Position numbers and translations under genes: made by a program
Notes under the pieces: model-generated
Databases searched by the model: none
What the model saw: the letters and a program-made list of their open reading frames with translations, nothing else
Told to the model about the DNA's origin: nothing
From: Pteria penguin
Lineage: Eukaryota; Mollusca; Bivalvia; Pterioida; Pteriidae
Direction of reading: 5' to 3'
Length of the DNA: 64,000 nucleotides
Assembly (NCBI GenBank): GCA_035048485.1
Contig: CM068587.1
Location: forward strand, 33,713,001-33,777,000
Shown here: in pieces, positions 1-43,206 of the stretch
Numbering within the stretch: position 1 is the first letter of the stretch
How the letters are laid out: each line of letters begins with the position of its first letter

Positions 1-2435
1 TGTTTTTTCGCTTTATGAAAGGGGATATGATATATTAAGTTTATTTCATAAATCGATTTGGGAAATTTTCATTCTGTAGCAAAGACTGTATCCAATTCAT
101 CTGTAAATTAAACGAAATATCAAATTTTCATTTCACTGTATCGTTGAATGTTCTCTGCGGTTTTTTTTTTCATAGAATCTTCCCATATACATGTACACAT
201 CTTCGGAATGTCTCTGGATCCACCCTTGCTTTGGTATTTGGCTGTATATTTTAGACACGGGTCGTTGTATTTCACAATTGACTTCTAGTCCAGGGTTGTC
301 ATGTAGCTCTATAGCTTTCTTCAGGGTCTCTCTACAAGTTCTTCAGTTCTCTTTCAAGTATACTGAATGTGTTTCAAAAGTACATAGATAACGATTGATA
401 AATCGATTTTATAGCTGCATTTTACCAACTTCACATCAATAGGCTTGGAATATAGATATGTAGTAGATAATGAATCTATTATGCTTCTGCATTGCCAAAG
501 AGCAGATTTCAAATATGTAAAATAGCAAATGATAAATTGGGCTTCCCGTCATCATTTTACATATTTCAAAGGATTTTATTCAGGCAGATGATAAGTTGAT
601 GTTGAGATGAGCTTCAGCATTTTACCACATTAGCAAAGCCCAAAATATTACATACTGATATAGATAGCATCCATGTCTGCATTAACCAAAAATTACATAG
701 AATATCGACAAAACTCCTTGATTACATAATATATATATATAAATTACTAGAATGTACCACAGTGTCAAGATTATCAAGGTGAAGTCAAATGGTAGGACTT
801 GTGGAAATCTTGGCAAAGACTCGCGCTTACGTTACCTGGCACCTGCACAGGTAACTCCGAGGCACTTTAAAACAGGCAGGTCGAAGCATGCTGGTTAAAT
901 GGAGGGGTTTTATGCGATCTTGATACTTAAATATGAAAGTCAATGAAATCATTGGAAATCAATGAACGAGCTTCAACAATAGCTTTAATAAGGGGAGAAG
1001 TGTGTTCAGCTCTTGTGATTTTGACCTCCGGATTTTGGTCTTGGTTTTTTCGCGGAGGTATACTTGATAGATTTTGAGGTGGCGGATGGATGTATGCACC
1101 GGTAATTAGATGTAAGTATCACCCCTTTATTCTCGAAACTCTCAGCAAAATTTTGATTTTCTTGAAGAATGAACAGGTGTAACTTGGATTTCAATATCTG
1201 AATGTAGCCGGTTTTCTCTTCTGCATTTTGTACCCTCTACTGTGTGTTATACCCCTCTTCTATCCTATATAACCCTCCTCTTTATACCTAATTTGCATGA
1301 ATGGTTGGTGCTCCTGCATGTTTCTATCCCCAGAATTTCTGTAGAATATTCACGCACCTGTGTATTGTTAACATCGTAGACTCTACTTGTATTTCCATTT
1401 GATTCCCAGCACACAGTTTTACTAACACATGAATGGCAGTAGGATCAATACTTGCTGAGTGCACACATTTGAGGTGTCTATTTAAACGGCTTTAATAGTG
1501 TTGGCGCGGATATTTACAGTTAATTCAAATCAAGCCAATGCATGTCATCAAAAGCAGCTTTATATTTGCCTATAGCCCCAGACAAACTCTCCTTTATTTC
1601 CCTTTCCTTGCTTGACTAGCTTTAAACTATTCTCTTGTTTCCTACACATTGATCTGCAGATCATTATATGTATTGTAATCACTTGCATTACGGGTCATTT
1701 CTTACCGAAGCCTTTTCACTCCTTTCACTTTCCTGCTGGTGATTTGGATAAAATTATACTGGCGACTACGTGTTCATGCTTCTTCTTGCTTCTCACCCTG
1801 CCGCTTCATCACATTTGCTTATGCTGCCTGCATTATTCACATAGGTATGGAACTCTTTTTATTATTGAAATTCGATCTCAGATATAAGCACATGTATACT
1901 CAAGAATGGTCTACGATAACTCCCCCTTTCATACCATGCAAAGCAAGTATGCAACTCGTATACATTGTATTCACTCCTTGTCGTTTACACGTGCATTCTT
2001 GTCGTTTACACGTGCATCCATCGCTGCTTGATTTGAATGTGCTGATGTTAATCATAAAATTTTAAATAGATATTTAATATGTGATTCGTTTGTGATGAAT
2101 AAAATCTTCAGAACTTTTTGCACTGGAATGTTGTTACTGCATTGTGTGCTTTGTGTTATGCCAGATAACATCATGTAACCGTCGTTGTTATGTTAGATAA
2201 CACTTTATAAACTCTGGTGTTATTCTAGATAACACTAACCTTGTATGACGTAGTAGTGTGAACTTAGGCTAATTTTGGTGGTGGTCTAGCAGTAATTTAC
2301 ACCTGCTCTTCTTGATCATGACAGTAACCTTTTAAAATTAACGCCTTAAAACTTTAATAATAATTTGATGAAAAATAGATCTTGCATAGTATGTTATTAT
2401 GTATAAATAACTGCATCCTCCTTTGTTCTATACAG
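1..2435. other. Non-coding DNA, probably intron of the gene ending at 4094
   Basis: No exon with convincing splice sites and coding character is seen on either strand. The sequence is AT-rich, with many short ORFs full of rare-residue runs, which I read as chance. It ends in the acceptor tract CCTTTGTTCTATACAG before the exon at 2436. Around 2153-2246 three imperfect copies of a GTTATGTTAGATAACAC-like palindromic motif occur. Confidence 0.6.
1978..2019. repeat. 21-bp direct tandem repeat, 2 copies
   Basis: The unit starting TTGTCGTTTACACGTGCAT is present twice in a row with one difference near the end. It contains ACACGTG, an E-box-like core, but no function is implied. Confidence 0.7.
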
Positions 2436-4094
2436 AGGCGGAAGTGCCGTTCTACGCAGACTCCGAATGGCTCAGCCCGGTTCTCCAGCCGAGGTACCTT
2501 GTTAGGGTCAGATGATAGTGACGATGATGATGACGATGACGATGTATTTAGATTACCCACAACTCCCCGCAGTCGACCTCCGTCTAGGTACCCTAGCAAA
2601 TCTTCCCTGAAGCATACAGGCCGACAGTTACCGACCCCTACCAGAAGGCGTGGTGCTAGACCACATGATCGATCACATGATAGTCTAAAGAAAGGTGGCG
2701 CCACTGCTGGTTTAGAGTCGGAAAGCGAAGAATCCGGATATGGTGAAACTTACTATACCATGCACGCTTCGAGTTTTGACAATGATGCATTTGATTCTGT
2801 GATAGAAACAACAATGAGAGGTACACCGTTAGGACTTGTAGATAATAATTATTCGGACAATGACTCCACGGTGAGTTACATTACCGGTGATTTCCCACAA
2901 GCAGACCCCAACGATCTCAGAGATGCCACATCTCAGACTTTGGGTCATGCTCGAACACAGACGAACCCCGATATGTGGAATGGCAGCTCTCGTGACATTA
3001 GTACCCAGATGCCACGTGGCATGACCACGCAGACCGATGATATGCCTCGGCAGATTTCAAGGTCTACGCAGTCCTTGCAGTCCATTGGTGCACAGACCAG
3101 ACGCTCTCATGGATCAAGGGCAGACCTGTTGAAAAGTATCTTAAGCGAGGTGAAGACCATGAAGGAACAGAGAGGAATAAATAGTCCAAACCTGAGTGAA
3201 GATTCTCAGTCTGTTCGCTCGGACACGACTCTGAAGAAAGGGATGTTGCGAAATCTACTGACGGACGTAACAATGCTAAAGGAACACGGAGCGCATGGCG
3301 AAGCTATGACGCAGACACAGGAAGAACAGGGAACCCAAACTGGTCATAGGTTGTTTCCGGAAGGTGACCCCGTCCGTAATGCGCGACATGGACGAATCCA
3401 TGGTCTTATGGATGAAATTAGGGACCTTAAAGGAGGAAGAGTGAGCAGGCATACGAACTCACCGAACTCTAATGTGTCTCAGATTGGAACTCCGACGCCT
3501 ATGGAACGTAGCAGACCGCATTCGAGCTTGAGCGCTGCAAATCGTAATTCCCCCGTACGATTTGCGGTGTCTCCACGCCCGGTATATGCACAAAATGGTG
3601 ACGTACCACAACAGAATGGGCTTGGCGGTTATGGTCCTGGATACGTTCCTGTTCATCAATATCCTCCCGGACCGCCGCCTGGAATGACCTACCCAGGTAG
3701 AGGCGTCACCCAGAACGACATTGCCGCTATCAGTGATAGGATACAGCGGCTAGAAAACTACCAACTCCCTCCACGCCGCACATTGCCTCCTCCCCCACCA
3801 CCCCCTCCACCTCCACAGTATATAGTGCCAGTATACTCAGCCAACCCTCGTCGTGTTCATTTCAGGGACGCCCCTCAATCCTATGATGATGAACTCGACG
3901 GGTTTCTCTCGGATGAGAGCGAATACGAGGGAGCGACCGCGCCTCGGAGGGGGCGAAGGAGGAGACGAAACCACGACCTCGACCGTCTGGGAATTGAGGA
4001 CGCGCTTGACCAAGCATGTGGTACAGCCAAACAGCTACGGCGCATGTCCAAAAAGATGAAAGACTCGCTTATTGACGATTTTGCGGAACTTTGA
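2436..4094 (+). CDS. Terminal coding exon: TQT-motif, low-complexity, probably cytoskeletal protein (3' part)
   Basis: This is a long last exon, 552 codons plus TGA, entered through the acceptor CTATACAG at phase 0. The reading frame runs open 54 nt further upstream, but that part is intronic. The N-terminal part has SR/TP-rich basic sequence and an eight-Asp run (about residues 29-36 of the exon). The middle carries five strict TQT motifs and four variants (SQT, TQM, TQS, AQT). Between and after them are three copies of a 17-residue amphipathic helix ending in a Lys. The C-terminal half has a Pro/Gly/Tyr-rich segment, a run of ten prolines (about 3784-3816), an acidic patch, a run of seven basic residues and a closing helix with basic residues. 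The mix of disorder, TQT (dynein light chain LC8-type) sites and a basic helical tail suggests a cytoskeletal or centrosomal scaffold. I do not recognise the family; the tail recalls AKNA-type proteins only weakly. It may be an alternative 3' end of the spectrin-repeat gene downstream. Confidence 0.8.
   Translation, partial: RRKCRSTQTPNGSARFSSRGTLLGSDDSDDDDDDDDVFRLPTTPRSRPPSRYPSKSSLKHTGRQLPTPTRRRGARPHDRSHDSLKKGGATAGLESESEESGYGETYYTMHASSFDNDAFDSVIETTMRGTPLGLVDNNYSDNDSTVSYITGDFPQADPNDLRDATSQTLGHARTQTNPDMWNGSSRDISTQMPRGMTTQTDDMPRQISRSTQSLQSIGAQTRRSHGSRADLLKSILSEVKTMKEQRGINSPNLSEDSQSVRSDTTLKKGMLRNLLTDVTMLKEHGAHGEAMTQTQEEQGTQTGHRLFPEGDPVRNARHGRIHGLMDEIRDLKGGRVSRHTNSPNSNVSQIGTPTPMERSRPHSSLSAANRNSPVRFAVSPRPVYAQNGDVPQQNGLGGYGPGYVPVHQYPPGPPPGMTYPGRGVTQNDIAAISDRIQRLENYQLPPRRTLPPPPPPPPPPQYIVPVYSANPRRVHFRDAPQSYDDELDGFLSDESEYEGATAPRRGRRRRRNHDLDRLGIEDALDQACGTAKQLRRMSKKMKDSLIDDFAEL
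2955..3341 (+). other. Cluster of TQT motifs (putative LC8-binding ladder)
   Basis: Within the coding exon, TQT codon triplets lie at 2955-2963, 3027-3035, 3309-3317 and 3333-3341, with an earlier one at 2454-2462. Variants lie at 2931-2939 (SQT), about 3003-3011 (TQM), 3066-3074 (TQS) and about 3090-3098 (AQT). Dynein light chain LC8 recognises motifs anchored on TQT. Repeated weak sites in disordered chains are known from multivalent LC8 partners. Binding here is inference. Confidence 0.6.
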
Positions 4095-5865: not shown

Positions 5866-6144
5866 TACATAATTTGTGTTATTTATCTATCAGATCATGT
5901 TTTTATATTTCATTTTTGGAATTTTGCTTCGATTGAATTTGGGAATTCCAAGAATGTTACGTATGCATTAATTTTTTTTCTTCTTTGGCAAGTATTTGAA
6001 GGATAAATACTAATATATACTGTTCCGGTAGTCCGGAATATCCTTTAATACGAAAAAAGTGGCCAGGAACAAACGTTTCCGGATTAACGGAGCATCACTG
6101 TAATTGAGACATATATACTTAATTTTGAAATATACAATAAACAA
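5866..6144. other. Intergenic or intronic DNA, nothing recognised
   Basis: AT-rich, without ORF, repeat or RNA gene that I can support. Confidence 0.5.
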
Positions 6145-6237
6145 TAAAAGAAACAACACAAACACTCTTTGCCGCAAATTTTCGGCCTCCTGGCCTTTAT
6201 CAAGCAATTGTTAGAAAAGTACAGAAGAACTATGTAA
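6145..6237 (-). repeat. Left arm of a large inverted repeat
   Basis: About 90 bp nearly identical, in reverse complement, to 14477-14567. The shared core contains TTTGCCGCAAATTTTCGGCC and CTTTATCAAGCAATTGTTAG. Inside it, 6243-6296 is a hairpin-ended insert (TAACATCCATCTTTA... ...TAAAGATGGATGTTA) absent from the right arm. Homology then resumes with ACAGTACAGCCTACGCGGAT. The pair could be the ends of one 8.4-kb element or two inverted copies of a smaller repeat. Confidence 0.75.
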
Positions 6238-6324
6238 CATCCATCTTTACATGTCTAATAAAAACAAGCTTCTAAATTCATATAAAGATGGATGTTACAG
6301 TACAGCCTACGCGGATTCCTCACT

Positions 6325-6535
6325 TTCCACCCATCACCGCAACCGATTTTTGGGTGGGAAATCACCGCAACCCACCGCAAAATAAGATTGCGGTGGACGT
6401 TCAAATCCATCGCAACCCACCGCAATTTTTACTGTCGTGACAGGAGATTGATTTGTCCATCGCGGGTCACCGCAGTTGGTCATATCGCCGCAGGCACTTG
6501 AAGACAAAAACGCGGCGGGCCACCGCAATCGTTAT
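6325..6535 (+). repeat. Subterminal array of CACCGCAACC-like motifs (left)
   Basis: At least seven copies or near copies of (C)ACCGCAA(CC) occur in about 200 bp, for example ATCACCGCAACCCACCGCAA. The same motif is arrayed in opposite orientation beside the right arm. Short arrays just inside inverted ends resemble transposase-binding subterminal repeats, which is inference. Confidence 0.65.
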
Positions 6536-7071
6536 CATCGTTGCAGAATCTTGTATTGGGATACCTGCGATACATTGTAATGTTTCAATAGCCATACTTT
6601 AAAATTCGTCCAGGTCCTATTTATATTCCACTTACGGGAGCTAAGGGTCTATTGAATTTAATGTACTTTGACATAAGTATCTTATATTTTGATGTGAAAT
6701 GCTCTCTATCAACAATACATTTAAAATCTATTCGTTAGTAAAATAGAATATTATAAGCAATTGTATTAACTTTAAAAGGGTAATGTGTTACAACGGTTCG
6801 AACACTGTCGCTCTTAATAAATGTTACTTGTATATAAATTAATGAACATATCTTTTATTTTATTGTGATTAATTTGGAAATGCTATCTTAGCAAAAAACG
6901 AAAGCTGAAATCGTATCTCGCATAGCGGGTATGTCTTATGAATAATGTACAAAAGTAGTGGTCATTAATTCGACAAGTAATGTATAGAATAGGTCATTTC
7001 CGATTTTCCTTTATTTATAATAAAATCTTAGAATTTATGTAGAAGTATACTGTCGAAGGACCAGTCCCCGA

Positions 7072-7222
7072 CTAAGACCAGTTTCCGGCTACTACGTTAT
7101 CAAGGGTATTCAAACCATGAATTCATATGTATTCTGTGTATTGCAGACAATCACGTGAAAAAAAATCTCATAAAATCACGTTTCAGAAGACAAAAAAAGT
7201 AGTAGCCGGTAACTGGTCTTAG
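7072..7222. repeat. Foldback element with 24-bp inverted arms
   Basis: The arm at 7072-7095 (CTAAGACCAGTTTCCGGCTA...) matches the reverse complement of 7199-7222 with one mismatch, around a spacer of about 103 bp. It fits a small MITE-like element. No clear target duplication was found. Confidence 0.6.
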
Positions 7223-7410
7223 CCGATAACTACTACCAGTAAGTCCGTAGGCACGCGATATGAAAGAAATTCTTTAGAATTGAATTAAACAAATTGATTT
7301 CAAGGAAAAAAGAAAAACAAGGACCTATCTTGTTTATACGTTCTTTACAAAAAAAAAAAAAAAATCAGTAATTGAAACGTGATTGTCTTATTTGTTTACA
7401 TGGTTGAAAC

Positions 7411-7440
7411 CAGAGACATACATGTGTATGTATGTCTCTG
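7411..7440. mobile_element. Ultra-short palindromic element, 30 bp, 8-bp TSD
   Basis: Begins CAGAGACATACATG and ends TATGTCTCTG, almost perfectly self-complementary. It is flanked on both sides by GTTGAAAC (7403-7410 and 7441-7448). Member of the CAGAGAC...GTCTCTG family clustered in this region. Confidence 0.7.
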
Positions 7441-7894
7441 GTTGAAACCGACCTGTATGAATCTGAATTATTGTCGCAAACAACTTGATCAATCGTGATC
7501 GCTTTATATAACTTTTCTTATCTATCTCTTGAATTCGTGCTTTTAAAGTTTACCTTAAATATAGACCATTCCTACGCGTAATACACGTACGCGGCCATCT
7601 TCTGATCACGTTACTATTACGGTAGCTATCATCAGCCTAGTCTCATATCATCAACCAAAGACTTTTCAACAAATTTATAAGTCCTTCCATCAGATTACAC
7701 TATCTACTGGTATCTCTTTTTTCATCATTTGTATATTTAATAAGTTGTTATGCATTTTTGCGGTCTTGACTGTAATTATGACTGAAATACAGACTATTTG
7801 CCATTTGCCTTGATAACATTACTTTACAAAACCTAACGCAAACGGAGATATATCTAATCTTACCGCTAATAATGCGAGTTTTTTTATGAATAAT

Positions 7895-7912
7895 CAGGGA
7901 CGCATGTTCCTG
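7895..7912. mobile_element. Ultra-short palindromic element, 18 bp, 7-bp TSD
   Basis: CAGGGACGCATGTTCCTG, flanked by GAATAAT at 7888-7894 and 7913-7919. Its ends vary slightly from the family consensus (GGG for GAG). It forms the left half of a larger inverted structure with the element at 7958. Confidence 0.6.
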
Positions 7913-7957
7913 GAATAATTGACTGTTTAGTACTGATCTATTAAAATTAAATTATTC

Positions 7958-7975
7958 CAGAGACGTAAGTCTCTG
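7958..7975. mobile_element. Ultra-short palindromic element, 18 bp, 7-bp TSD
   Basis: CAGAGACGTAAGTCTCTG, flanked by ATTATTC at 7951-7957 and 7976-7982. The flank is the reverse complement of the flank of the 7895 element, so 7888-7982 is itself an inverted repeat. Confidence 0.65.
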
Positions 7976-8017
7976 ATTATTCCCATGATTCGAGTTTAAA
8001 GGGGAAACTTTTTGACC

Positions 8018-8078
8018 GTACGGTTGAAGTCACGTGATTGAGCTGGGGGCGTGGTTTAACTGGTCGCCGAAATCACCG
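8018..8078 (+). repeat. Dispersed repeat, copy 1 of 2
   Basis: About 60 bp sharing GTACGGT, CACGTGATT/CATGTGATT, GGGG(G)ACGTG/GCGTG and TGGTCGCCGAAATCAC/TGATCGCCGAAGTCAC with 11995-12052 in the same order. After it, 8092-8162 carries a diverged direct repeat of CGGGGTAT...GGTAATCGG. Confidence 0.5.
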
Positions 8079-8399
8079 CTTGTCTCTAGCTCGGGGTATT
8101 TGCCTAGAGGCGCTTGGTAATCGGGGTATTGGGTATGCCTGGAAGCGCATGGTAATCGGGAGGTGTGAACATGCTATAGTTTGGTGTAAATAATGTGTGG
8201 GATTTGAATTGATAATAGAAAGTACATTCTTTAGTGCAGTAATGAAGATTCTAGTTGTATTTCATTTTTTCATTTTAATTGGTTTTATTACATTTTAGGG
8301 GGTGGGGTGTTTGATGTATTTGTTTGTTTTGATCTCTGTTTGGAGAGTTTTATTTTGAAGGAGTTTGAGGACATAAGCCGATATTTCTGCCGTACTTTA

Positions 8400-8900
8400 C
8401 GAAATACACAATTGGGCATAATTCCCTCCCAATATCAATAGGACTGCCAATCAAATCTGTTTCGCCTTCTGTTCAGACTTACTTTCCGAGTCTTTCTATC
8501 TAAATATTGAGAATCATCCCACACAACACGATGGCATAGCATTGTCCAGCACTTCTTGTATAGGTCCTCTCTCTTTCTATGCCGGATTACGATGGTGCGG
8601 AGGGACGTCTGATTCTGGTCACCACATCTGTCGGTTTCGATCATCTATCACGCAGGGTCATGAAAAGCAGTCTGGGCATTCGTGTTCCCCTTCAAATTGT
8701 GGACTGAGAGGCTTCATTGCCAGGCGACTCGGTGTCCACAAGGTCCTCTGTCAAAGTACTGTCCAGTCCCAGTCACTGTGTGCAAAAAATGCCTGTTACG
8801 CTTGAAGCTTATCAGGTGATAGATTCAAAGTTACGGTGTCCATTGTTGGGTTTTAGAAGCAGAATGATGATATGTAGAAGAGATTCAGATATATTAAAAC
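8400..8900. other. Unassigned sequence with more balanced base composition
   Basis: This block is less AT-rich than its surroundings and has overlapping short ORFs on both strands (8542-8805 plus, 8435-8644 minus). Codons do not form a recognisable domain and frames are broken on either side. It may be a decayed transposable element; no family is recognised. Confidence 0.3.
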
Positions 8901-9188
8901 ACTTTCCTTTAAGCTTGTACTGACAGAAAATGGATTGTGTAATAGGTGTAAAACCAGGTTGTCACCTGTGGTCAATAATATCTCCAGGTATCCTTGGCAA
9001 AAGTGAAAGCGACTTTCCAGAAACTGTCGTCCGTATTACGCAATAAACTTACAGGATTTATGTCAGCTGTTTAACCCCATCATCCGTAAGACTATAATTG
9101 ATACACGTGTATGTTGATTGGAGCAAATCAATTAACATTGCATACACGAGGGAAGTAAAGCATAGTGAATTGATCTTCGTTCTTTCTC

Positions 9189-9349
9189 CAGTGGCGGATC
9201 CATCACTCCCTTTGCCGAGGGATCAAGGGACGAATTTTGTCAAATTTAGCCGAAAATGGACTAAATTACAGGGTATTGGTAGAATTCGGGTCACTGTCAA
9301 GGGGGGGGGGGGAGGAGCACCCCCTCCGCTCCTCCTAAATCCGCCATTG
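9189..9349. mobile_element. Small DNA-transposon remnant with TGGCGGAT ends
   Basis: It starts CAGTGGCGGATCCA and ends TAAATCCGCCATTG, an imperfect inverted repeat. The interior has a 13-G run followed by a GGAGGAGCACCCCCTCC block. It belongs to the same loose family as 12778-13770, 38184-38335 and 60148-60289. No matching target duplication is visible. Confidence 0.6.
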
Positions 9350-9967
9350 TTTAATTAAGTTATTTTTGACAAGTTGATTTCGGTTACGAAGTAGAGTTGT
9401 ATTCAAGTTCCACAGGCCTAATACTGCAGTTTATTACCTTAGAGATCATATGCGAAATTGTTAAAGGGTTTTCTGAAACTTTCAACTCCAGGTTTTGCAT
9501 AATAGGGTAGTCTCAATTTGGAAATAACAAAGTAGATGATGATGTTTCTCATCCCCGAAAACAACAATTCATCTGCATACTGAAATTTAAAGTCATATTC
9601 CATCTGAGTAACAGTTACAAAAAATCCTCGTTTGTGATATGGTGTACTGGTTTCTGTCATGGTCATTCTAAGTCTTATACCTATATATAATATATATATG
9701 AAATACTTTGTTGAATATTTAACGTAAGTATTAAAGATTTAATTGATTTGCAAAGATATGCACCATTTCGACTTAGAGTCGAATCGAGAATCTGATATGG
9801 ATAACAAGAATATATTATTGATATTGATATTTGCCGAAACATAGACTAGGTTTTGATAGTAGTCTATGTCTCTGATCCTTTTTATCTGATTAATCTGTAA
9901 TACATAAATACATAATTCATTACTTAGCTTGGGTGACCAAGTTAGGAAAATTCCTTTTCTGTTTTTC

Positions 9968-10013
9968 CAGAGACATATGTATGTCTGGTTTTTCCAGTGT
10001 ATATATGTCTCTG
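9968..10013. mobile_element. Double ultra-short palindrome with three GTTTTTC direct repeats
   Basis: Two units, 9968-9987 (CAGAGACATATGTATGTCTG) and 9995-10013 (CAGTGTATATATGTCTCTG), are separated and flanked by GTTTTTC at 9961-9967, 9988-9994 and 10014-10020. Either two insertions used the same site, or one larger insertion lost or copied internal sequence. Confidence 0.65.
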
Positions 10014-10269
10014 GTTTTTCATATCTTAATTTAAAACTGAAATTCATGATAGACTATAAAACAAACACGTTTATTAATTTTCAATCACAGCCACCGATCA
10101 GATCATTTAACTAAACATTAATAAAAGCAAATATTGTTTTAAACACTACGCTCATAGGTCATTTTTCTATCTCGATAACTTTTTTTCAGTACCGTAATGG
10201 CGGATACGACCGCGACACCTATCGGTAAAGGGCAGATAACTATTAAGTAACTACCCAATCGAATGGTGA

Positions 10270-10313
10270 CAGAGACACAGACTACTTTACTTTGAAAGTA
10301 GTCTATCTTTCTG
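10270..10313. mobile_element. Palindromic element of the CAGAGAC family, 44 bp
   Basis: Begins CAGAGACACAGACTACTTT and ends AAAGTAGTCTATCTTTCTG. The arms are the same as in 10383-10421 with a few changes. No intact direct repeat flanks it, so it is older or rearranged. Confidence 0.5.
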
Positions 10314-10382
10314 GTAATACGCGATGGTCTATCAAGCGCGTTGTGTTACCTAGAAATTAAGTTGTCGTGTTTGATATGTCAT

Positions 10383-10421
10383 CAGAGACATAGACTACTT
10401 TGAAAGTAGTCTATGTCTCTG
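10383..10421. mobile_element. Perfect 39-bp palindrome with 7-bp TSD
   Basis: Arms of 19 bp (CAGAGACATAGACTACTTT) and their exact complement surround a single G. ATGTCAT is repeated at 10376-10382 and 10422-10428. It is the cleanest copy of the family and suggests that at least 19 bp of terminal inverted repeat are conserved. Confidence 0.75.
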
Positions 10422-10492
10422 ATGTCATGCATCGACATAGTGTCACTCGTTATTTCAGTCGTGTAACAGACCGTGGTAATACCCGACCGTGG

Positions 10493-10640
10493 TAATATGC
10501 GTGTTCTAAATTTTTAATTTACTTGGGGGTGGAGGATGGTAAATACAAAAATTAAAACATGAAAACTAGTTGTCATGCTTTAATTTTTGTATTTACCACC
10601 TCCAAGTAAATTAAAAAATTGGAACATGGCAGTAATACCT
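10493..10640. repeat. Foldback (long inverted repeat) element
   Basis: Arms of roughly 60 bp face each other around AAAACTAGTTGT. They include TTTAATTTACTTGGGGGTGG on the left and CCACCTCCAAGTAAATTAAA on the right. A shorter relative lies at 24044-24105 and 31842-31903. Probably a MITE-like element able to form a hairpin. Confidence 0.65.
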
Positions 10641-10727
10641 GATGGCCTATCATGTACGTAGTGTTTCCTAGATATTTAGTTCTTTTGTTCATTTTGATCA
10701 GGGTCTTATATTAGATATTGTATAAGT

Positions 10728-11003
10728 CCGAAGCCGGCGTGGCCTAGTGGTATCGCGCTCGCCTCCTGGTGGTCGGGAGGCCGGGGTTCGAATCCCGGTC
10801 ATGTCGGTGTCCTGTCTTTCGGATAAGACAGTAAAACCGAGGCCCCATGTCGTAGTATGCATGGCACGTTAAAGATCCCTCACTGCTTCGGGTGGGTCCG
10901 TTGCAAATGTCAAAATTTGTATGCCTTGCATCAGGCAGATGCCGTCACCATATACTTGAAATATTTATGGTATGACGTTAAACAAAAATCAATCAATCAA
11001 TCA
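10728..11003 (+). mobile_element. Full-length tRNA-derived SINE (family 1) with 9-bp TSD
   Basis: The tRNA-like head has a box A-like GTGGCCTAGTGG and box B GGTTCGAATCC. A conserved body follows (AGATCCCTCACTGCTTCGG, CATCAGGCAGATGCCGTCAC), ending in an AATCAATCAATC tail. TGTATAAGT flanks it at 10719-10727 and 11004-11012. This is the reference copy for the other family-1 copies here. The head is not a functional tRNA gene. Confidence 0.85.
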
Positions 11004-11258
11004 TGTATAAGTTCCTGATTATATTTTCAGCCGGGAAAATGTAGTAGAGATGGATTTTGATACAAGAAAATCCTATACAGACTTGAGGGTGCTTGATGCT
11101 GTCCTGGGAATAACTCCCGTTTTCCTGGCGGAAATTGAATACCCTGTTAATTCAGTATGATTAAATATGACAATGCCCTGTTCACTATTTAGCGCCCGAG
11201 GTGGTATATTTAAACCGAAGGGGTCCTGATCTAGTGGTAAAACACTAGATAGTCTAGC

Positions 11259-11280
11259 CAGAGACATATATATGTCTCTG
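11259..11280. mobile_element. Perfect 22-bp palindrome with 7-bp TSD
   Basis: Begins CAGAGACATA and ends TATGTCTCTG with no spacer. GTCTAGC flanks it at 11252-11258 and 11281-11287. Confidence 0.7.
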
Positions 11281-11794
11281 GTCTAGCACGCTACCAATTT
11301 TCTTTTTTATTCTCGAAGTCGGCGTGACATCACACTAAGATCTAAATGAAGATAATCCCCGAAACATTCCGAGGATGACCTGGGGGATAAACTCGGTGTT
11401 TATCATAGACCGTAATGCAACTTTGATGAACTATATGATGACTCTCTTTCATTCTTCGAATTTTATATGACCGCGCTTTGCAAAAATGAGATTCAAAATA
11501 TCGGATTCTTCGTAGACAGCGGTGATAAATCCCGAGACTTATCCCCCAACAAATATGATGCAAATTAGGTCATTTAACCAGTCCGACATCAAGAATAGGG
11601 GAACATAAGATGAAAAATATAGAAAACAGTGGCAACGGTCGGCAGACGCCAACTAGCAGATTCAGGGCCATCTCTTCCTGAAAATACATAGATAGTATTT
11701 ACGTATAGGTTCTCAACTTTTTATAATATTAACAAGTTCATTATTAAATATGCATATGTTAAGAGACATATATACTTTATGTAGAACGTATACC

Positions 11795-11831
11795 CAGAGA
11801 CATATATACTTTCAAAGCATATATGTCTCTG
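11795..11831. mobile_element. Palindromic element of the CAGAGAC family, 37 bp, decayed TSD
   Basis: Begins CAGAGACATATATACTTT and ends ATATATGTCTCTG. Flanks GTATACC (11788-11794) and GTATATC (11832-11838) agree at six of seven bases. A half copy, AGAGACATATATACTTTAT, precedes it at 11762. Confidence 0.6.
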
Positions 11832-11994
11832 GTATATCTGACAATTTGTATAAAAATTCCAAGTTTTAAGGATGAGAATCACAGCTCAATGACATAACCT
11901 GCATCTAACTATTAAACTCAAAACTGAAATTGATGCCGTAGACCGGGAGTGAATCGTTACAACTCTTGAATAAAGATTACCACACTTTTTGGCA

Positions 11995-12052
11995 GTACGG
12001 TCAGGTCATGTGATTACACTTGGGGACGTGCTACCTGATCGCCGAAGTCACT
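11995..12052 (+). repeat. Dispersed repeat, copy 2 of 2
   Basis: Diverged direct copy of 8018-8078, keeping TGATCGCCGAAGTCAC. ORFs reading through it are not supported as genes. Confidence 0.45.
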
Positions 12053-12777
12053 GCATGTTGGAGAATACCCGGATACCCGCAGCGAGACGAATGTACCTCG
12101 AGTCATTGCGAAGCGGAAAGGTTGTTGACAGGGGAAGCGAAACCCTTGGGGGTTTTTACACACAGGTATTGGGTGGTAGTTACCATTGGCAACATAAGGA
12201 AAGGGGTCGGACACTTCAAAGTTTTAAAAGATAAAGAGCGAGATATTACAATTGGGGGAGAGGAATAATAAAATTTCTAACTGTCCTCGACGTTAAATAC
12301 TTGCATCCGAAACATTGCTATTATTTTCATGATTCTAAATTTATCCCCAACAGGGTATTAGCAGTTTGTCGTAAGTAAAGATATGAACTGCATTACAATA
12401 GAAATGTGAGTCTCATATCTCACTTATGATGGATTGGATAAGAGTCTAGATTCAGTGCTATAATGCGAGCTAAACTGAAAATAAGGGAAAGTTATACACG
12501 TAAGAAATACATGAACAGAATCTTTATATCATATCAACAGTGCCACCATTATATTTGAGTAAATTACAGTTGATGTATGCCGATTTATAAAACTTTAGTA
12601 TATGTCCTTCTTGGGAAAATATTTTGAAATTAAAGATAGTGTAACAAAAAACGTAATGAATATGACACATAAAATGTTAATTTTGACGAATATCCGTTTA
12701 TTGAAATTTTACTCCTTTGGATGAATTTTGACTCGTTGCTCAGAGAAACAGTACGTATACGATTTGCCCAGGAGTCT

Positions 12778-13770
12778 CAGGGGCGGATCCAGAACTGGGG
12801 GGACCTCACAATTGAGGCCCGAAGGGCCGAATGGGGAGGGGTCCGCCCCTTCCATAGGTGGTGGTTCGGGGGGCTTCCCCGAGAAAATTTTGCAAAAATG
12901 AGGCGAAATGGTGCAATCTGGCGTTCTTTTTTGCATTATTCATCAACATTTTCTTGACTTCAAATATTCCGCAAAAACTCTGAAATCGGAAGAAAACGGT
13001 CATAATATTTTCGATAAAAAATATCATGTTCACCCCTCCCTCTCTCCCATAGGTGGGGATGGGGTTTTCCTGAGAAGATATGACAAAAATCTTGCAAAAT
13101 CGTGTGTGCCATATTAGGCCCCTTTTGTTCTAATTCACGGAAATTTTATCAGGCATGGACCCAGATTTTTAGTAGGAGGAGGCGTAAAACTCGGCACAGG
13201 GTCTAGGAACTGCCTATAGGTCCCCGGTGGATGTAGGGTAGATCCTTGGTAGGGGGAACAAGGTGCAAAGTCCCCCTCCACGAGAGCTCCTGTATTTGAG
13301 ACTTTTGGAGATACAAAATACGTTGTGAAAATAAACTATTCTAGAAATGGCTATAAGTGAAAACCATCCTGTACATCGCGTAGCTTCAGTACAAGCGTTT
13401 CAAAAATTTGTACTGAAGCTACACGATGTACAAGACGTATTTAAGTAAAATAGTATGGATAAGTAAAATCCATCTTGTACAGCTCGTAGCTTCAAACATT
13501 TGTAACATTTGCTACACGATGTACAAGTAGCCATACGGTTTCACTCGCCTGAGGCCAAGTGACCGAACATTTGTGCGCTGGATATTAATTTGGATTGCAC
13601 ATATATTTCGCTTCCCTCTGGAAAATATTATGGATCATAAACGGGGATCAGGGGAGATTTATCATGAAATTGATCGCGAGTGAAGCGAGTCAACGATTTT
13701 TTAGACAGAAATGCAGTAAAATAGGTCCTTAAACAGACTATGGTGCCCCCTTCGGCTGGATCCGCCCCTG
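12778..13770. mobile_element. 993-bp non-autonomous DNA element, 15-bp perfect TIR, 5-bp TSD
   Basis: The ends CAGGGGCGGATCCAG and CTGGATCCGCCCCTG are exact inverted repeats. AGTCT lies directly outside both (12773-12777 and 13771-13775). The interior has no transposase; it holds GC-rich ends, gggg/cccc runs and the tandem hairpins at 13349-13530. CAGGG(G)-type ends are usual for hAT-like MITEs, but those make 8-bp duplications, so the superfamily is open. Confidence 0.75.
13349..13530. repeat. Two tandem hairpin units inside the 993-bp element
   Basis: Hairpin 1 pairs 13369-13394 with 13408-13434 (GTACATCG...AGCTTCAGTACAA). Hairpin 2 pairs 13474-13495 with 13507-13527 (CTTGTACAGCTCGTAGC...). 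Both are preceded by a similar TAAGTGAAAACCATC/TAAGTAAAATCCATC stretch, so the unit of about 105 bp has been tandemly duplicated. Confidence 0.65.
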
Positions 13771-13788
13771 AGTCTATCAAAGTGTTAT

Positions 13789-13916
13789 CAGAGACCTATA
13801 TAAAGGTATATAGAGGCACGGGGAAGATTGTATATGTACTGGCATGGGGGAGATTGTACTGGGACTGGCACTGGGACATCTTATATAATGGTGTATACAG
13901 GGACTCTATGTCTCTG
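13789..13916. mobile_element. 128-bp member of the CAGAGAC family with 7-bp TSD
   Basis: It begins CAGAGACCTATATAAAGG and ends CTCTATGTCTCTG. GTGTTAT flanks it exactly at 13782-13788 and 13917-13923. It is the longest copy here, with a G-rich unique centre, and shows that the palindromes are the ends of a once longer element. Confidence 0.75.
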
Positions 13917-14235
13917 GTGTTATAAGGCGGGGCCTTCTGTGCAACATGTGGTCTCCGCTAACAATAAATATATATATTTAAAAGCAAGCTTCCCTGATAA
14001 AAAGTGCTCTTATTTATGTGCTTCTGTAAGAAAATGCAAATGAGGGCATTGCTATACATGCAATTTCCATGATATACGGCGATAAAAAGGCATGACGATA
14101 TCGCATATCAATACAATGTTAAATTGAAAGTTTAAAATATTTATTTTTGCAAACTATGTTATAAATAAGTTTACAATAATCAATGTCTAAATTTTCAAAT
14201 TAATACAAAGCCTAATAATTGCATTGAGTAGCGAT

Positions 14236-14412
14236 GATTTTAATACCAGACTCGACGATTGCGATGGGTCGCGGTGGGTTGCGGCGATTGCGATGGGTCA
14301 CGATGGTTAAGTACGGGTCAGAGCATTTGCCACGGCTCTCGGATATGGAAAGAGAGATAGATTGCGGTGGTTCGCCGCGAAAAATCACCGCAACGGCTGC
14401 GGTGATTTTCCA
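14236..14412 (-). repeat. Subterminal array of CACCGCAACC-like motifs (right)
   Basis: In reverse complement this repeats the motif of 6325-6535 at least six times (GCGATGGGTCGCGGTGGGTT on the plus strand). It lies just inside the right inverted arm. Confidence 0.65.
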
Positions 14413-14476
14413 CTATAAACTTAAACTGTCCGCGGCGGCAGAGCGGAAAATGTGTAATCCGCGTAGGCTGTACTGT

Positions 14477-14567
14477 ACATAGTTCTTCTGTACTTTACTA
14501 ACAATTGCTTGATAAAGGCCAGGAGGCCGAAAATTTGCGGCAAAGAGTGTTTGTGTTGTTTCTTTTA
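14477..14567 (+). repeat. Right arm of the large inverted repeat
   Basis: Near-identical reverse complement of 6145-6237. It is preceded at 14455-14476 by the complement of the left arm's inner homology (AATCCGCGTAGGCTGTACTG). Homology ends near TTTCTTTTA. Confidence 0.75.
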
Positions 14568-15385
14568 GTGTATTTTACTTCCCTTTGGAGGACTACTTAT
14601 TCTATCCAATAAACAATAGAAAAAATGTATTTTATGTCGAAATGGACACACACTCCATCATAGGCATAAATAATTATACCGAATTTCCGGCAATTTTAAA
14701 TAAGCAGATTCCATCATGCAGAAATGTATTTGTTTGACTAACACGCAGAATATACATGTAGTTGTCATTTTCTCCGTGCAGGACTAGTACATTGTAATAT
14801 GAAAAAAAGGTCTAAGTTCGATATATATCTAAGGGAATATTGGCATAATTTAGGGAAAATCTCTTATTGTGTTTTCCGTATGCATGCTTTCCTCTTGACC
14901 ATGGCGTCTAAAGTAAACTTACAGTTTGGATTTGGAGGAATACATGTATAGTAACAAAGTATATAATGTGCTTACTCTGGTAATAACCGTGTCCTTTGTA
15001 ACGTTCATACTGAAACTCTATCTGTTACCCACAATAATTATAAAATACAGGCATTTATTTGCAAATTCATATAATTGAAGTGGCGTCTACTGACCTTGGT
15101 TTGATAGATAGATAACCGCCAACGGGAGGTAACTCCCATCAATTCTGGCCTATTGTAAACTATCTATACTTGGAATATTTACGTCTCAGACACCAATCTT
15201 TACGTTTATACATGATAGATTGATGTAAACAATGTTCCTATGCGTGACCCTGTAAATGAACTAGCAGAGAAATTTAAGTGTTTCACATATATCTAAATTC
15301 TTCCTTGCCGGTGTTGATATTTTTGCTTGTTTTTGTTTTTATGGGGGAGTTTTGTTTGGGATTTTTTAACTTTACCTAACTACCG
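14568..15385. other. AT-rich non-coding DNA, nothing recognised
   Basis: No gene, RNA or clear repeat seen before the tetranucleotide microsatellite. Confidence 0.5.
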
Positions 15386-15781: not shown

Positions 15782-16031
15782 AAGACGGTGTGGTTCAGTG
15801 GAGGAGGTGTTCGGCTCATGACGTTCGACTCCCGACGTATGCACATCGGTGTCCTGATGAGACAGTAAAAACCGAGGTCCCATGTTACGGTAGGCGTGGC
15901 AAGTAAAAGATACCTCGGTGCTTCAGTTGGGTCCGTTTAAAGGTATAAATTTCTCTGTGATGCATCAGGCAAATGCCGTCACCATATACGTGAAATAATC
16001 GTGGATTGACGTAAAACAGTAATCAATCAGT
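15782..16031 (+). mobile_element. SINE family 1 copy with 12-bp TSD
   Basis: Diverged tRNA-like head (GTGTGGTTCAGTGG and ACGTTCGACTCCC), the family body (AAAACCGAGGTCCCATG, GCATCAGGCAAATGCCGTCA) and a GTAATCAATCAG tail. AGGTCAAAGAAC lies at 15770-15781 and 16032-16043. Confidence 0.8.
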
Positions 16032-41889: not shown

Positions 41890-43206
41890 GTATGATAAAA
41901 TTTATGGGACACACAGGTTTAGTCCAGTTTCTTTTTTAAATAATTTGATTGAAAAAAAAAAACCCAGAGACATTGACAACTTTCAGTAAAGTAGCCTATG
42001 TCTCTGATAAATCTGATGGATTGGCATCATCTACAGGCCTATACATATATTGATATTGCAATGAATGTCCTTCAAAGGACTGGACTAAAATCATCAAATT
42101 TGGTTCGAAGATAGATAGTGATAAGCATCTGTCTTATCTGATACACGTATATTCATGTACATTTGACCCTGAACTTGTTTATCTAATGTAGTTCATTGTA
42201 ATCACCTAGAAAGTTCCTTTGTACATGTAATCACCTAGAATTAGCAAAAAAAAAAAAAAGGAAGAGTCAACCTTATTCAAGTTTTTAAACATCAAAAACT
42301 ATATCTATGACATGGTTAAAAAAATACTGACTGTATTGCTTTACAAGAATATACATTTAGTTCAAATCTCATAGAACAAATTAAAAAAAATAGAAGTCAC
42401 AAAACCCATTGGCAAAATGGCTGCCCAGATGTCTTTGGCAACATTAGGAGATGTAAATTGTTAGCGAGGGATTGTATTGTTATAGTCAGCAGAATAGGAA
42501 AAAAGAAAAGGTTTTGAATTAATCATACCTTACTATATCAACTATTGTCATAGTTAGCAGAATGGGGAAAAGTTTTGAATTCATGATTATGTACTGTGTC
42601 AGCAATTGATAATAGATTATTGATAAAGAAGTTTATGCTGACACTGTAATTGATTTGCTGGAGTGCTTTACATATTGCTAGTAAATATTTCATTGATTAT
42701 TCTCTACTGATTATTTAGTGTCAAATAAATATGCCATTATATCAATGACAGCTAGTGACACAATTAATGTTTGAAATTTTAATTTACAATTTTTCAGTAT
42801 CTTATTTGCAAGATTAAATGTACATTATTTCTGATTGTATGGATTTTGATCAAACATGATCAATTTGTAGCCACTATTGATAACATCTGAATCATACATG
42901 TATAGATAATACTTTGTTTTATTTGTCTTCTCCTTTATGTGTCTCTTTAACATTGAAATACTACATTTAATTCCTCCATTCATCAAGGTTTTATCCTTTT
43001 AAAATGAAGATACCATCCAATTTATGCTAATACGTTTTTGATTAGACAAACATTTTGTATTAACTTTTCTCTTCATGAGAATTCACATGTATATATTAAG
43101 CTAAACAAACATTTACTGTTGGTATTTACTAGTACATGTAATATCAGTATTTGTTTCACAGCATAAGCATGTAGTTTTTAATAAGTTTTTAAAATTTATT
43201 TTCTAG
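41890..43206 (+). other. Intron 3, about 1.3 kb
   Basis: Holds the decayed palindromic element at 41965-42006 and otherwise AT-rich sequence. Confidence 0.6.
41965..42006. mobile_element. Decayed CAGAGAC-family palindrome in intron 3
   Basis: Begins CAGAGACATTGACAACTTTC and ends CCTATGTCTCTG. Flanks AAAAACC and ATAAATC agree at five of seven bases. It is the only clear copy found outside the 7.4-14 kb cluster. Confidence 0.55.

Follow-up and report, generated by a model that had tools for sequence, protein, structure and literature searches.

The short palindromes crowded into one part of the window (the whole 64,000-nucleotide stretch analysed here) are most probably excision scars of a P-superfamily cut-and-paste transposon, a reading to which we give a probability of about 0.88. 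Excision footprints were one of two interpretations offered in an earlier note on this DNA, and they are supported by direct observations: target duplications around the palindromes, unexcised elements with the same ends, one of which has P-transposase domains and an exact 7-bp duplication, a sharp and fixed limit to arm length, and empty sites in paralogous sequence.

A scan of the window returned 12 palindromes of the form CAGAGAC...GTCTCTG, 18-128 bp long, with exact flanking repeats of 7-8 bp at eight of them, and 11 of the 12 are packed into one stretch of about 6.4-6.5 kb. The units, coordinates and flanking repeats quoted in the earlier note are all present, including GTTGAAAC at 7411, as are the decayed copies that it placed at 9834, 10270 and 11795. 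This cluster is far beyond chance. Pairs of CAGRGAC...GTYYCTG no more than 150 bp apart occur 11 times (mean 0.1 and maximum 2 in 200 dinucleotide shuffles), and six of these pairs also have an exact 7-bp flanking repeat, a combination that 200 dinucleotide shuffles never produced. A motif-blind scan for exact 7-bp direct repeats around exact 7-bp inverted ends, spaced 14-130 bp apart, found seven sites against a mean of 0.15 and a maximum of 2 in 100 shuffles; five belong to the CAGRGAC palindrome family, one spans two family copies and one (514-563) is unrelated. The shuffles rule out chance inverted repeats as the source of the palindromes. A grouping of 11 out of 12 within about 6.4 kb was reached in none of 200,000 random placements, a test that assumes independent copies, which these are not fully. 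The features are as follows, where a scar is a probable excision scar and types 1 and 2 are two terminal inverted repeat (TIR) subfamilies of one P-type family.

6141-14571, unstranded: host stretch, a copy of a large dispersed repeat holding 11 of the 12 scars; outer limits approximate, bounded by inverted repeats at 6141-6328 and 14445-14571
7411-7440, unstranded: scar A, 30 bp; exact 8-bp duplication GTTGAAAC
7895-7912, unstranded: scar B, 18 bp; duplication GAATAAT
7958-7975, unstranded: scar C, 18 bp; duplication ATTATTC
8282-8288, plus strand: empty target site GTTTTAT, element-free counterpart of the insertion site in paralog L087
9834-9874, unstranded: scar H, decayed, type-1 arms; best flank identity 4/7
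9961-10020, unstranded: tandem scars D1 (9968-9987) and D2 (9995-10013); three copies of GTTTTTC
10270-10313, unstranded: scar I, 44 bp, decayed, type-1 arms; flank identity low
10383-10421, unstranded: scar E, 39 bp; duplication ATGTCAT
11259-11280, unstranded: scar F, 22-bp perfect palindrome; duplication GTCTAGC
11795-11831, unstranded: scar J, 37 bp, decayed; duplication GTATACC/GTATATC (6/7)
13789-13916, unstranded: G, scar or deletion remnant, 128 bp; exact 7-bp duplication GTGTTAT
41965-42006, unstranded: scar K, 42 bp, decayed type-1 arms; flanks 5/7; outside the cluster

The description of most units as two ends joined back to back stands, except for G, which contains about 100 bp of non-TIR sequence, and the units at 9968 and 9995 are better described as a tandem pair. 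In scar A, an 18-nt type-2-like tail (two mismatches) is joined to a shorter tail; the right arm of D2 is 17 nt of type 2, the type-1 arms of E are exact to 19 and 21 nt, and F is the join expected from two scar-J-like tails pairing at TATATA. Scar I has GTAATAC as its right flank and no clear left partner.

The pattern extends well beyond the window. A genome search of the kind that the earlier note had recommended gave 2,873 matches to the palindrome pattern, not all of them independent, since copying of the host repeat also multiplied the scars inside it. Among 50 listed palindromes, the duplication is exact in 27 (7 bp in 22, 8 bp in 5) and near-exact in 16; none is recognisable in seven, which counts against the scar reading, as does the lack of a duplication at two of eight full-length pairs. 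As a control, flanks cross-paired among the 50 gave two exact matches in 2,450. The centres vary, with 37 distinct sequences among the 50, the most recurrent of which accounts for up to five. Genome-wide, the type-1 20-mer has 538 exact occurrences compared with 173 full type-1 TIR ends (at most three mismatches). Of thirty loci of this 20-mer, 20 lie in palindromes, two in full TIRs and eight by themselves, under a permissive criterion that also admits decayed copies of scar H; two of the loci (L045 and L046) are the two arms of one scar, and the resulting scar-to-element ratio is a rough figure.

Longer elements with these ends, the other search proposed at the outset, do exist. Two unexcised, non-autonomous elements (L070 and L071) have ends as in the scars and 34-bp inverted repeats, identical at both ends in L070 and with two differences in L071. 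Eight further facing TIR pairs have an exact duplication of 7 bp (three) or 8 bp (two), a partial one (6/8, one) or none (two). The most informative case is an element of 6,842 bp in L087 (2542-9383), a 97.5%-identical copy of the window region, where it is inserted exactly at the counterpart of window positions 8282-8288 with GTTTTAT intact on both flanks. It carries the domains TNP-like_RNaseH_N (3.8e-20), TNP-like_GBD (2.5e-20) and RNaseH_C (2e-10), and of its two frames the one of 283 aa has a match to the P transposase structure 6p5a (E 2.6e-14), to which the one of 628 aa gave none. Pfam reported no THAP domain in the two transposase frames of L087 or in four relatives, a point against the main reading, though eight Mytilus relatives are named THAP9. 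Membership in the P superfamily is indicated by an element that has scar-type ends and encodes RNase H and GTP-binding insertion domains of the P type, by target duplications of 7 or 8 bp at scars and full-length elements alike, and by TIRs of about 30 bp. The type-2 TIR is 31 bp long as known from one end of one element (L087), the other end of which diverges after nt 18. Around two weaker PF21788 matches (L088 and L089) no facing pair of scar-type ends was seen, and L089 has one TIR-like end. Within the window, no other elements of up to 4 kb with palindrome-type ends (tips with at most one mismatch) were found, and six ORFs searched against Pfam gave spectrin-type exons and no transposase. 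The 19-mer CAGAGACATAGACTACTTT had no match in viral contigs and one in prokaryote contigs, close to the chance expectation for 257 Gb and hence uninformative.

The scars keep only the outer 18 (type 2) or about 21 (type 1) nucleotides of the repeat. Among 84 type-2 arms, 31 reach precisely nt 18 and not one passes it, and the longest of 14 type-1 arms reach nt 21. In a type-1 sample of 20 palindromes, 13 match as far as nt 21, six for another 1-3 nt and one to nt 20, so that the cut would be placed with a precision of no better than about 1 nt. Because the arm counts come from a pattern that admits palindromes of up to 48 bp, it would miss a pair of arms that each exceed 24 nt, while a single long arm is still detectable. 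The inner motif GAGACTGGAAACT, allowing two mismatches, was found in none of the 12 window scars. These end points strongly suggest a long staggered cut inside the TIR.

How the strands are cut, which polarity the tails have and by what pathway they are joined is deduced here by analogy with Drosophila P. Insertion would duplicate a target nTnnnAn of 7 bp, less often 8 bp. At excision, one strand would be severed at the tip of the transposon and its partner within the inverted repeat, at a depth of 18 nt in one subfamily and 21 nt in the other, so that the donor DNA would end in long single-stranded tails. Since the two tails would be inverted copies of each other, end joining should yield back-to-back palindromes between the target copies, whether the tails are trimmed, paired through short self-complementary stretches such as TATATA, or joined with added filler. 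A further, joint proposal, to which we give somewhat less than even odds, is that the second cut is measured outward from the inner motif and not inward from the tip, and that scars outnumber elements through germline excisions sealed by end joining. The two subfamilies differ by 3 bp in the distance from tip to inner motif, and in both the scar ends about 13 bp from the end of that motif (18/31 and 21/34; 17/31 in Drosophila P). On this proposal, scars would be far more numerous than elements because germline excisions are mostly end-joined, not refilled from a sister copy, and the genome would amount to an extensive natural archive of transposon exits and of how the breaks were mended.

The crowding of scars arises largely because the stretch belongs to a large dispersed repeat that took many P insertions and was duplicated together with the scars they left. 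Scar A is found also in L087; C in L087, L011 and L062; H in L059, L044, L042, L062 and L011; and E (with GTGTCAT flanks on both sides), F, I and J in L059, so that these seven recur in at least one other copy of the host repeat. Empty sites are seen in older copies: B is missing from L062 and L011, each with a single GAATAAT, and the D site is empty in L062 and holds only D1 in L059. None of the compared paralogs was seen to cover G. It could instead be supposed that the cluster is the trail of one locally hopping element, with a scar for each stop, and no property of the host repeat. P does prefer nearby targets, though at some 50-150 kb (PMC7776569), and 6.5 kb do contain 11 of the 12 scars; we nevertheless consider this unlikely, given the recurrence of the same scars in other copies, the proximity of 11 of 79 sampled loci to host-repeat copies, and the mixture of scar ages and TIR subfamilies in the stretch.

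Much less likely still is the other reading in the earlier note, that of minimal elements that still move, here micro-MITEs of 18-46 bp mobilised by a P-type transposase. Their copy number would be high, many have exact duplications and some sequences occur at several places, but recurrence is equally predicted by end joining, one junction making up 14 of the 66 isolates in Table 1 of PMC2895639. The terminal sequences that Drosophila P requires measure no less than 138 and 216 bp, and those of Anopheles P-MITEs slightly less than 100 bp (PMC1562414). None of the 12 copies in the window contains the inner 13 bp of the repeat (at most two mismatches), so that they lack the complete ends of an autonomous element expected of a MITE, and their centres differ from copy to copy. 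A hAT transposon is the least credible source: the CAGAG tip resembles hAT ends and GTTGAAAC conforms to nTnnnnAn, but 22 of the 27 exact duplications are 7 bp and not 8 bp long, and the one coding element read with these ends has P-transposase domains. Furthermore, in hAT excision the hairpins form on donor DNA next to the element (PMC3878927), so that 18-21 nt of the element's own ends should not remain, and hobo makes an 8-bp duplication in 99.83% of insertions (PMC3276498, Table 3); of the two kinds of footprint named in the earlier note, that of P is the one supported.

P-type excision scars are already known from fly reporters, and here a natural genome offers 2,873 matches to the scar pattern. 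For a P-type transposase from a host that is neither fly nor fish, the assembly alone would yield an approximate position of the cut, the rule for its targets and the range of products that end joining makes, and the scars provide a test of how such an enzyme places its unusual second cut. They are also a warning to repeat annotators, as dense, duplication-flanked micro-palindromes may be marks of departure and not elements. Among the titles and abstract openings returned by searches of open-licence PMC full text, none describes a genome-wide set of natural P-type scars, although one may still be in print.

The closest parallel is Drosophila melanogaster P itself. Among the 66 isolates listed in Table 1 of PMC2895639, 44 junctions retain the two target copies together with TIR sequence on either side, with a median of 30 bp and 19 perfect palindromes; as here, outer TIR tails lie back to back, some as AT/TA-paired perfect palindromes and some with templated filler. 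Those junctions derive from reporters, whereas the present scars are natural, and Drosophila P has 17-nt tails, a 31-bp TIR and an 8-bp duplication (PMC2895639); in the present scars the tails measure about 18 or 21 nt and most duplications are of 7 bp. Two other members of the superfamily in Drosophila share the short duplication: Galileo, with 7 or 8 bp (mostly 7) and a palindromic target GTATTAC, differs in its very long inverted repeats, and the passages on it in PMC4168063 do not use the word 'footprint'; 1360/hoppel, with 7 bp and the target GTTNAAC, differs in host and ends, and the passages on it in PMC3276498 mention no scars. Zebrafish Pdre2/THAP9 is likewise a non-fly P-type transposase that excises its elements, but with a 13-bp TIR (CATACCTGTCAAC), an 8-bp duplication and assay excisions that left larger flanking deletions (PMC10983969). 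Finally, the P-MITEs of Anopheles gambiae are non-autonomous copies with P ends, as are L070 and L071, and differ from the palindromes in being genuine elements of greater length, not scars, with TIRs of 27-31 bp and a duplication of 8 bp (PMC1562414).

Eleven units with CAGAGAC/GTCTCTG tips lie at 7.4-13.9 kb of the window and one more at 41965-42006, a set that is far beyond chance by both motif-based and motif-blind shuffles. Eight units are flanked by exact duplications, 7 bp long except for one of 8 bp, the tandem pair at 9968-10013 being counted as two units with three GTTTTTC copies common to both. The window (G000:C8:33713001-33777000) holds exons of a SYNE1/nesprin-like gene; a 571-aa frame at 2379-4094 has Mytilus coruscus SYNE1 as its best named relative (54% identity; unnamed relatives reach 63%), which points to a bivalve as the probable source. 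We refer to the palindromes as scars:

7411-7440, scar A
7895-7912, scar B
7958-7975, scar C
9834-9874, scar H
9968-9987, scar D1
9995-10013, scar D2
10270-10313, scar I
10383-10421, scar E
11259-11280, scar F
11795-11831, scar J
13789-13916, G, a scar or deletion remnant
41965-42006, scar K

Across the 838-Mb assembly, the pattern CAGAGACATN{0,30}ATGTCTCTG has 2,873 matches and its reversed control 0; these are pattern matches and not a count of independent excisions, because some scars were copied along with their host repeat, a large dispersed repeat of which one copy spans approximately window 6141-14571. Of 79 loci sampled, 11 were inside such a copy or close to one. We examined flanks for the 50 matches listed, all within the first 16.5 Mb of contig 1, and found 22 exact 7-bp and 5 exact 8-bp duplications, 16 with one mismatch and 7 without any. 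The earlier note had reported the window's cluster with 7-8 bp duplications, which is confirmed, and its expectation of flanking direct repeats elsewhere is borne out by exact 7- or 8-bp repeats at 27/50 listed palindromes, versus 2/2,450 exact 7-bp matches when flanks from different places were cross-paired. Among the 22 exact 7-bp duplications, T occupies position 2 in 19 and A position 6 in 15. The 8-bp target rule of hAT elements is nTnnnnAn, and an nTnnnAn rule by itself does not tell P from hAT. As described in PMC4168063, Galileo duplications are likewise mainly 7 bp and sometimes 8, and 1360 makes a 7-bp duplication at GTTNAAC (PMC3276498, Tables 3 and 4), again like the mainly 7-bp duplications here.

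Elements that still carry both of these ends are present in the genome. The 20-nt end CAGAGACATAGACTACTTTC occurs at 538 places in the genome, and facing pairs of it delimit a 1,142-bp element (L070; duplication 7/8) with the same 34-bp terminal inverted repeat (TIR), CAGAGACATAGACTACTTTCAGAGACTGGAAACT, at both ends, and a 2,808-bp element (L071) with the exact duplication ATGTTAA. Eight more facing pairs, chosen among the matches listed for full ends of type 1, one of two TIR subfamilies, have 3 exact 7-bp, 2 exact 8-bp, 1 partial and 2 no duplications. A profile search independent of the end sequences found the Pfam GTP-binding domain of P transposase three times in this genome and in none of 14 control genomes. 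The best match sits in a 6,842-bp element (locus L087, 2542-9383) with CAGAGACATATATACACA at start and end and GTTTTAT on both sides, a longer element with these ends and P-transposase domains, of the kind that the earlier note proposed to look for. Its 628-aa frame has an RNase H N-terminal domain (Pfam) and no match among solved chains; its 283-aa frame has GTP-binding and RNase H C-terminal domains (Pfam) and matches the solved P transposase 6p5a (E 2.6e-14). Among 113 relatives are 8 Mytilus proteins named THAP9; Pfam found no THAP domain in the two frames or four relatives. In the L087 element the right TIR keeps 31 bp and the left diverges after nt 18, as if it had itself been cut there and then rejoined.

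The arms of the palindromes stop at a fixed place within the TIR, which is 34 bp long in type 1 and about 31 bp in type 2 (from one end only) and is closed in both by the inner motif GAGACTGGAAACT. Among the matches listed, 31 of 84 type-2 arms (42 palindromes) stop exactly at nt 18 and none beyond, and type-1 arms (n=14) reach 21 nt at most; the pattern limits the unit to 48 bp and would miss two very long arms. The 20-mer search has no such limit; it gave 20 loci classed as palindromic, with the last matching position at nt 21 in 13, at nt 20 in 1 and 1-3 nt past 21 in 6. Arms thus extend to about 13 bp short of the TIR inner end. In Drosophila, P transposase cleaves one strand 17 bp into a 31-bp TIR, which leaves 17-nt 3' extensions (PMC7776569). 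Table 1 of PMC2895639, which lists 66 isolates (the paper's own text says 68), gives both target copies with TIR on both sides in 44/66, a median of 30 bp and 19 perfect palindromes; these joined ends have the same make-up as the window's palindromes. Cut polarity and repair enzymes would, by analogy, be those of Drosophila. Scar F is CAGAGACATATATATGTCTCTG, the product expected when two scar-J-like tails pair at TATATA; scar A is joined from a tail of 18 nt (2 mismatches) and a shorter tail, and scar E from two nearly full type-1 tails.

The palindromes are very probably excision marks of a P-superfamily transposon. Of the two readings in the earlier note, footprints of the kind known for P and hAT stood, with P as the very probable source and hAT very unlikely in view of the P-transposase domains of the L087 element. 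Still-moving minimal elements are improbable, since arms stop short of the TIR inner end and centres vary (37 distinct sequences among the 50 matches listed), the pattern to be expected if each scar was joined on its own and not if a single mobile unit had been copied. Three things are new: the scale of the natural scar record, duplications that in this setting are mainly 7 bp, and the finding that scars of the two subfamilies end about 18 and 21 nt in and yet equally far from the inner motif.

Paralogous copies of the host repeat differ in which sites are filled. L087 is 97.5% identical to window 6296-8799 but is interrupted by the 6.8-kb element precisely at GTTTTAT, a site empty in the window (8282-8288). 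Scar B is missing from copies L062 and L011, each with a single GAATAAT. L062 is also empty at the D site, where L059 holds D1 alone and the window D1 with D2. Scar A is common to the window and L087, scars E, F, I and J to the window and L059, and C and H are also in older copies; no paralog spanning G was seen among the compared copies. The scars thus differ in age, and some were copied with the host repeat, which largely explains their crowding. L059 may have lost D2, and the three GTTTTTC may reflect an element inserting twice at one target, repair from a template, or a scar duplicated in tandem together with its target copy. Scars can seed tandem arrays, as at L072 (G000:C2:33084400-33085600), where four tandem 36-bp units each hold a scar and a CTTCCAGT-like 8-mer. 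Scar E is identical in the window and L059, with both target copies ATGTCAT in the former and GTGTCAT in the latter; the change may have occurred in parallel, have spread by gene conversion, or go back to independent events at a shared target. The targets of B and C, GAATAAT and ATTATTC, are reverse complements, making 7888-7982 a larger inverted repeat.

Inverted repeats at 6141-6328 and 14445-14571 enclose the scar-rich stretch (arms of 96 nt that are 97.9% alike, and a further 33 nt at 91%), the left arm being split by a palindromic insert of about 60 bp (~6236-6296). Within it lie a palindromic element at 10498-10631 (10502-10626 self-complementary, GTAATA on both sides), with relatives at ~24.04-24.13 kb and ~31.84-31.93 kb; an element at 12778-13770 with ends CAGGGGCGGATCCAG/CTGGATCCGCCCCTG and AGTCT on both sides; and a SINE-like repeat at 10727-11010, with a head that looks tRNA-like by eye and a TCAATCAATCAATC tail, whose relatives near 15856, 24762 and 32561 are 79-84% alike. 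A tandem duplication at ~18.67-34.2 kb, with a period of ~7.8 kb and 100% identity in sampled segments, is either recent or an assembly artefact.
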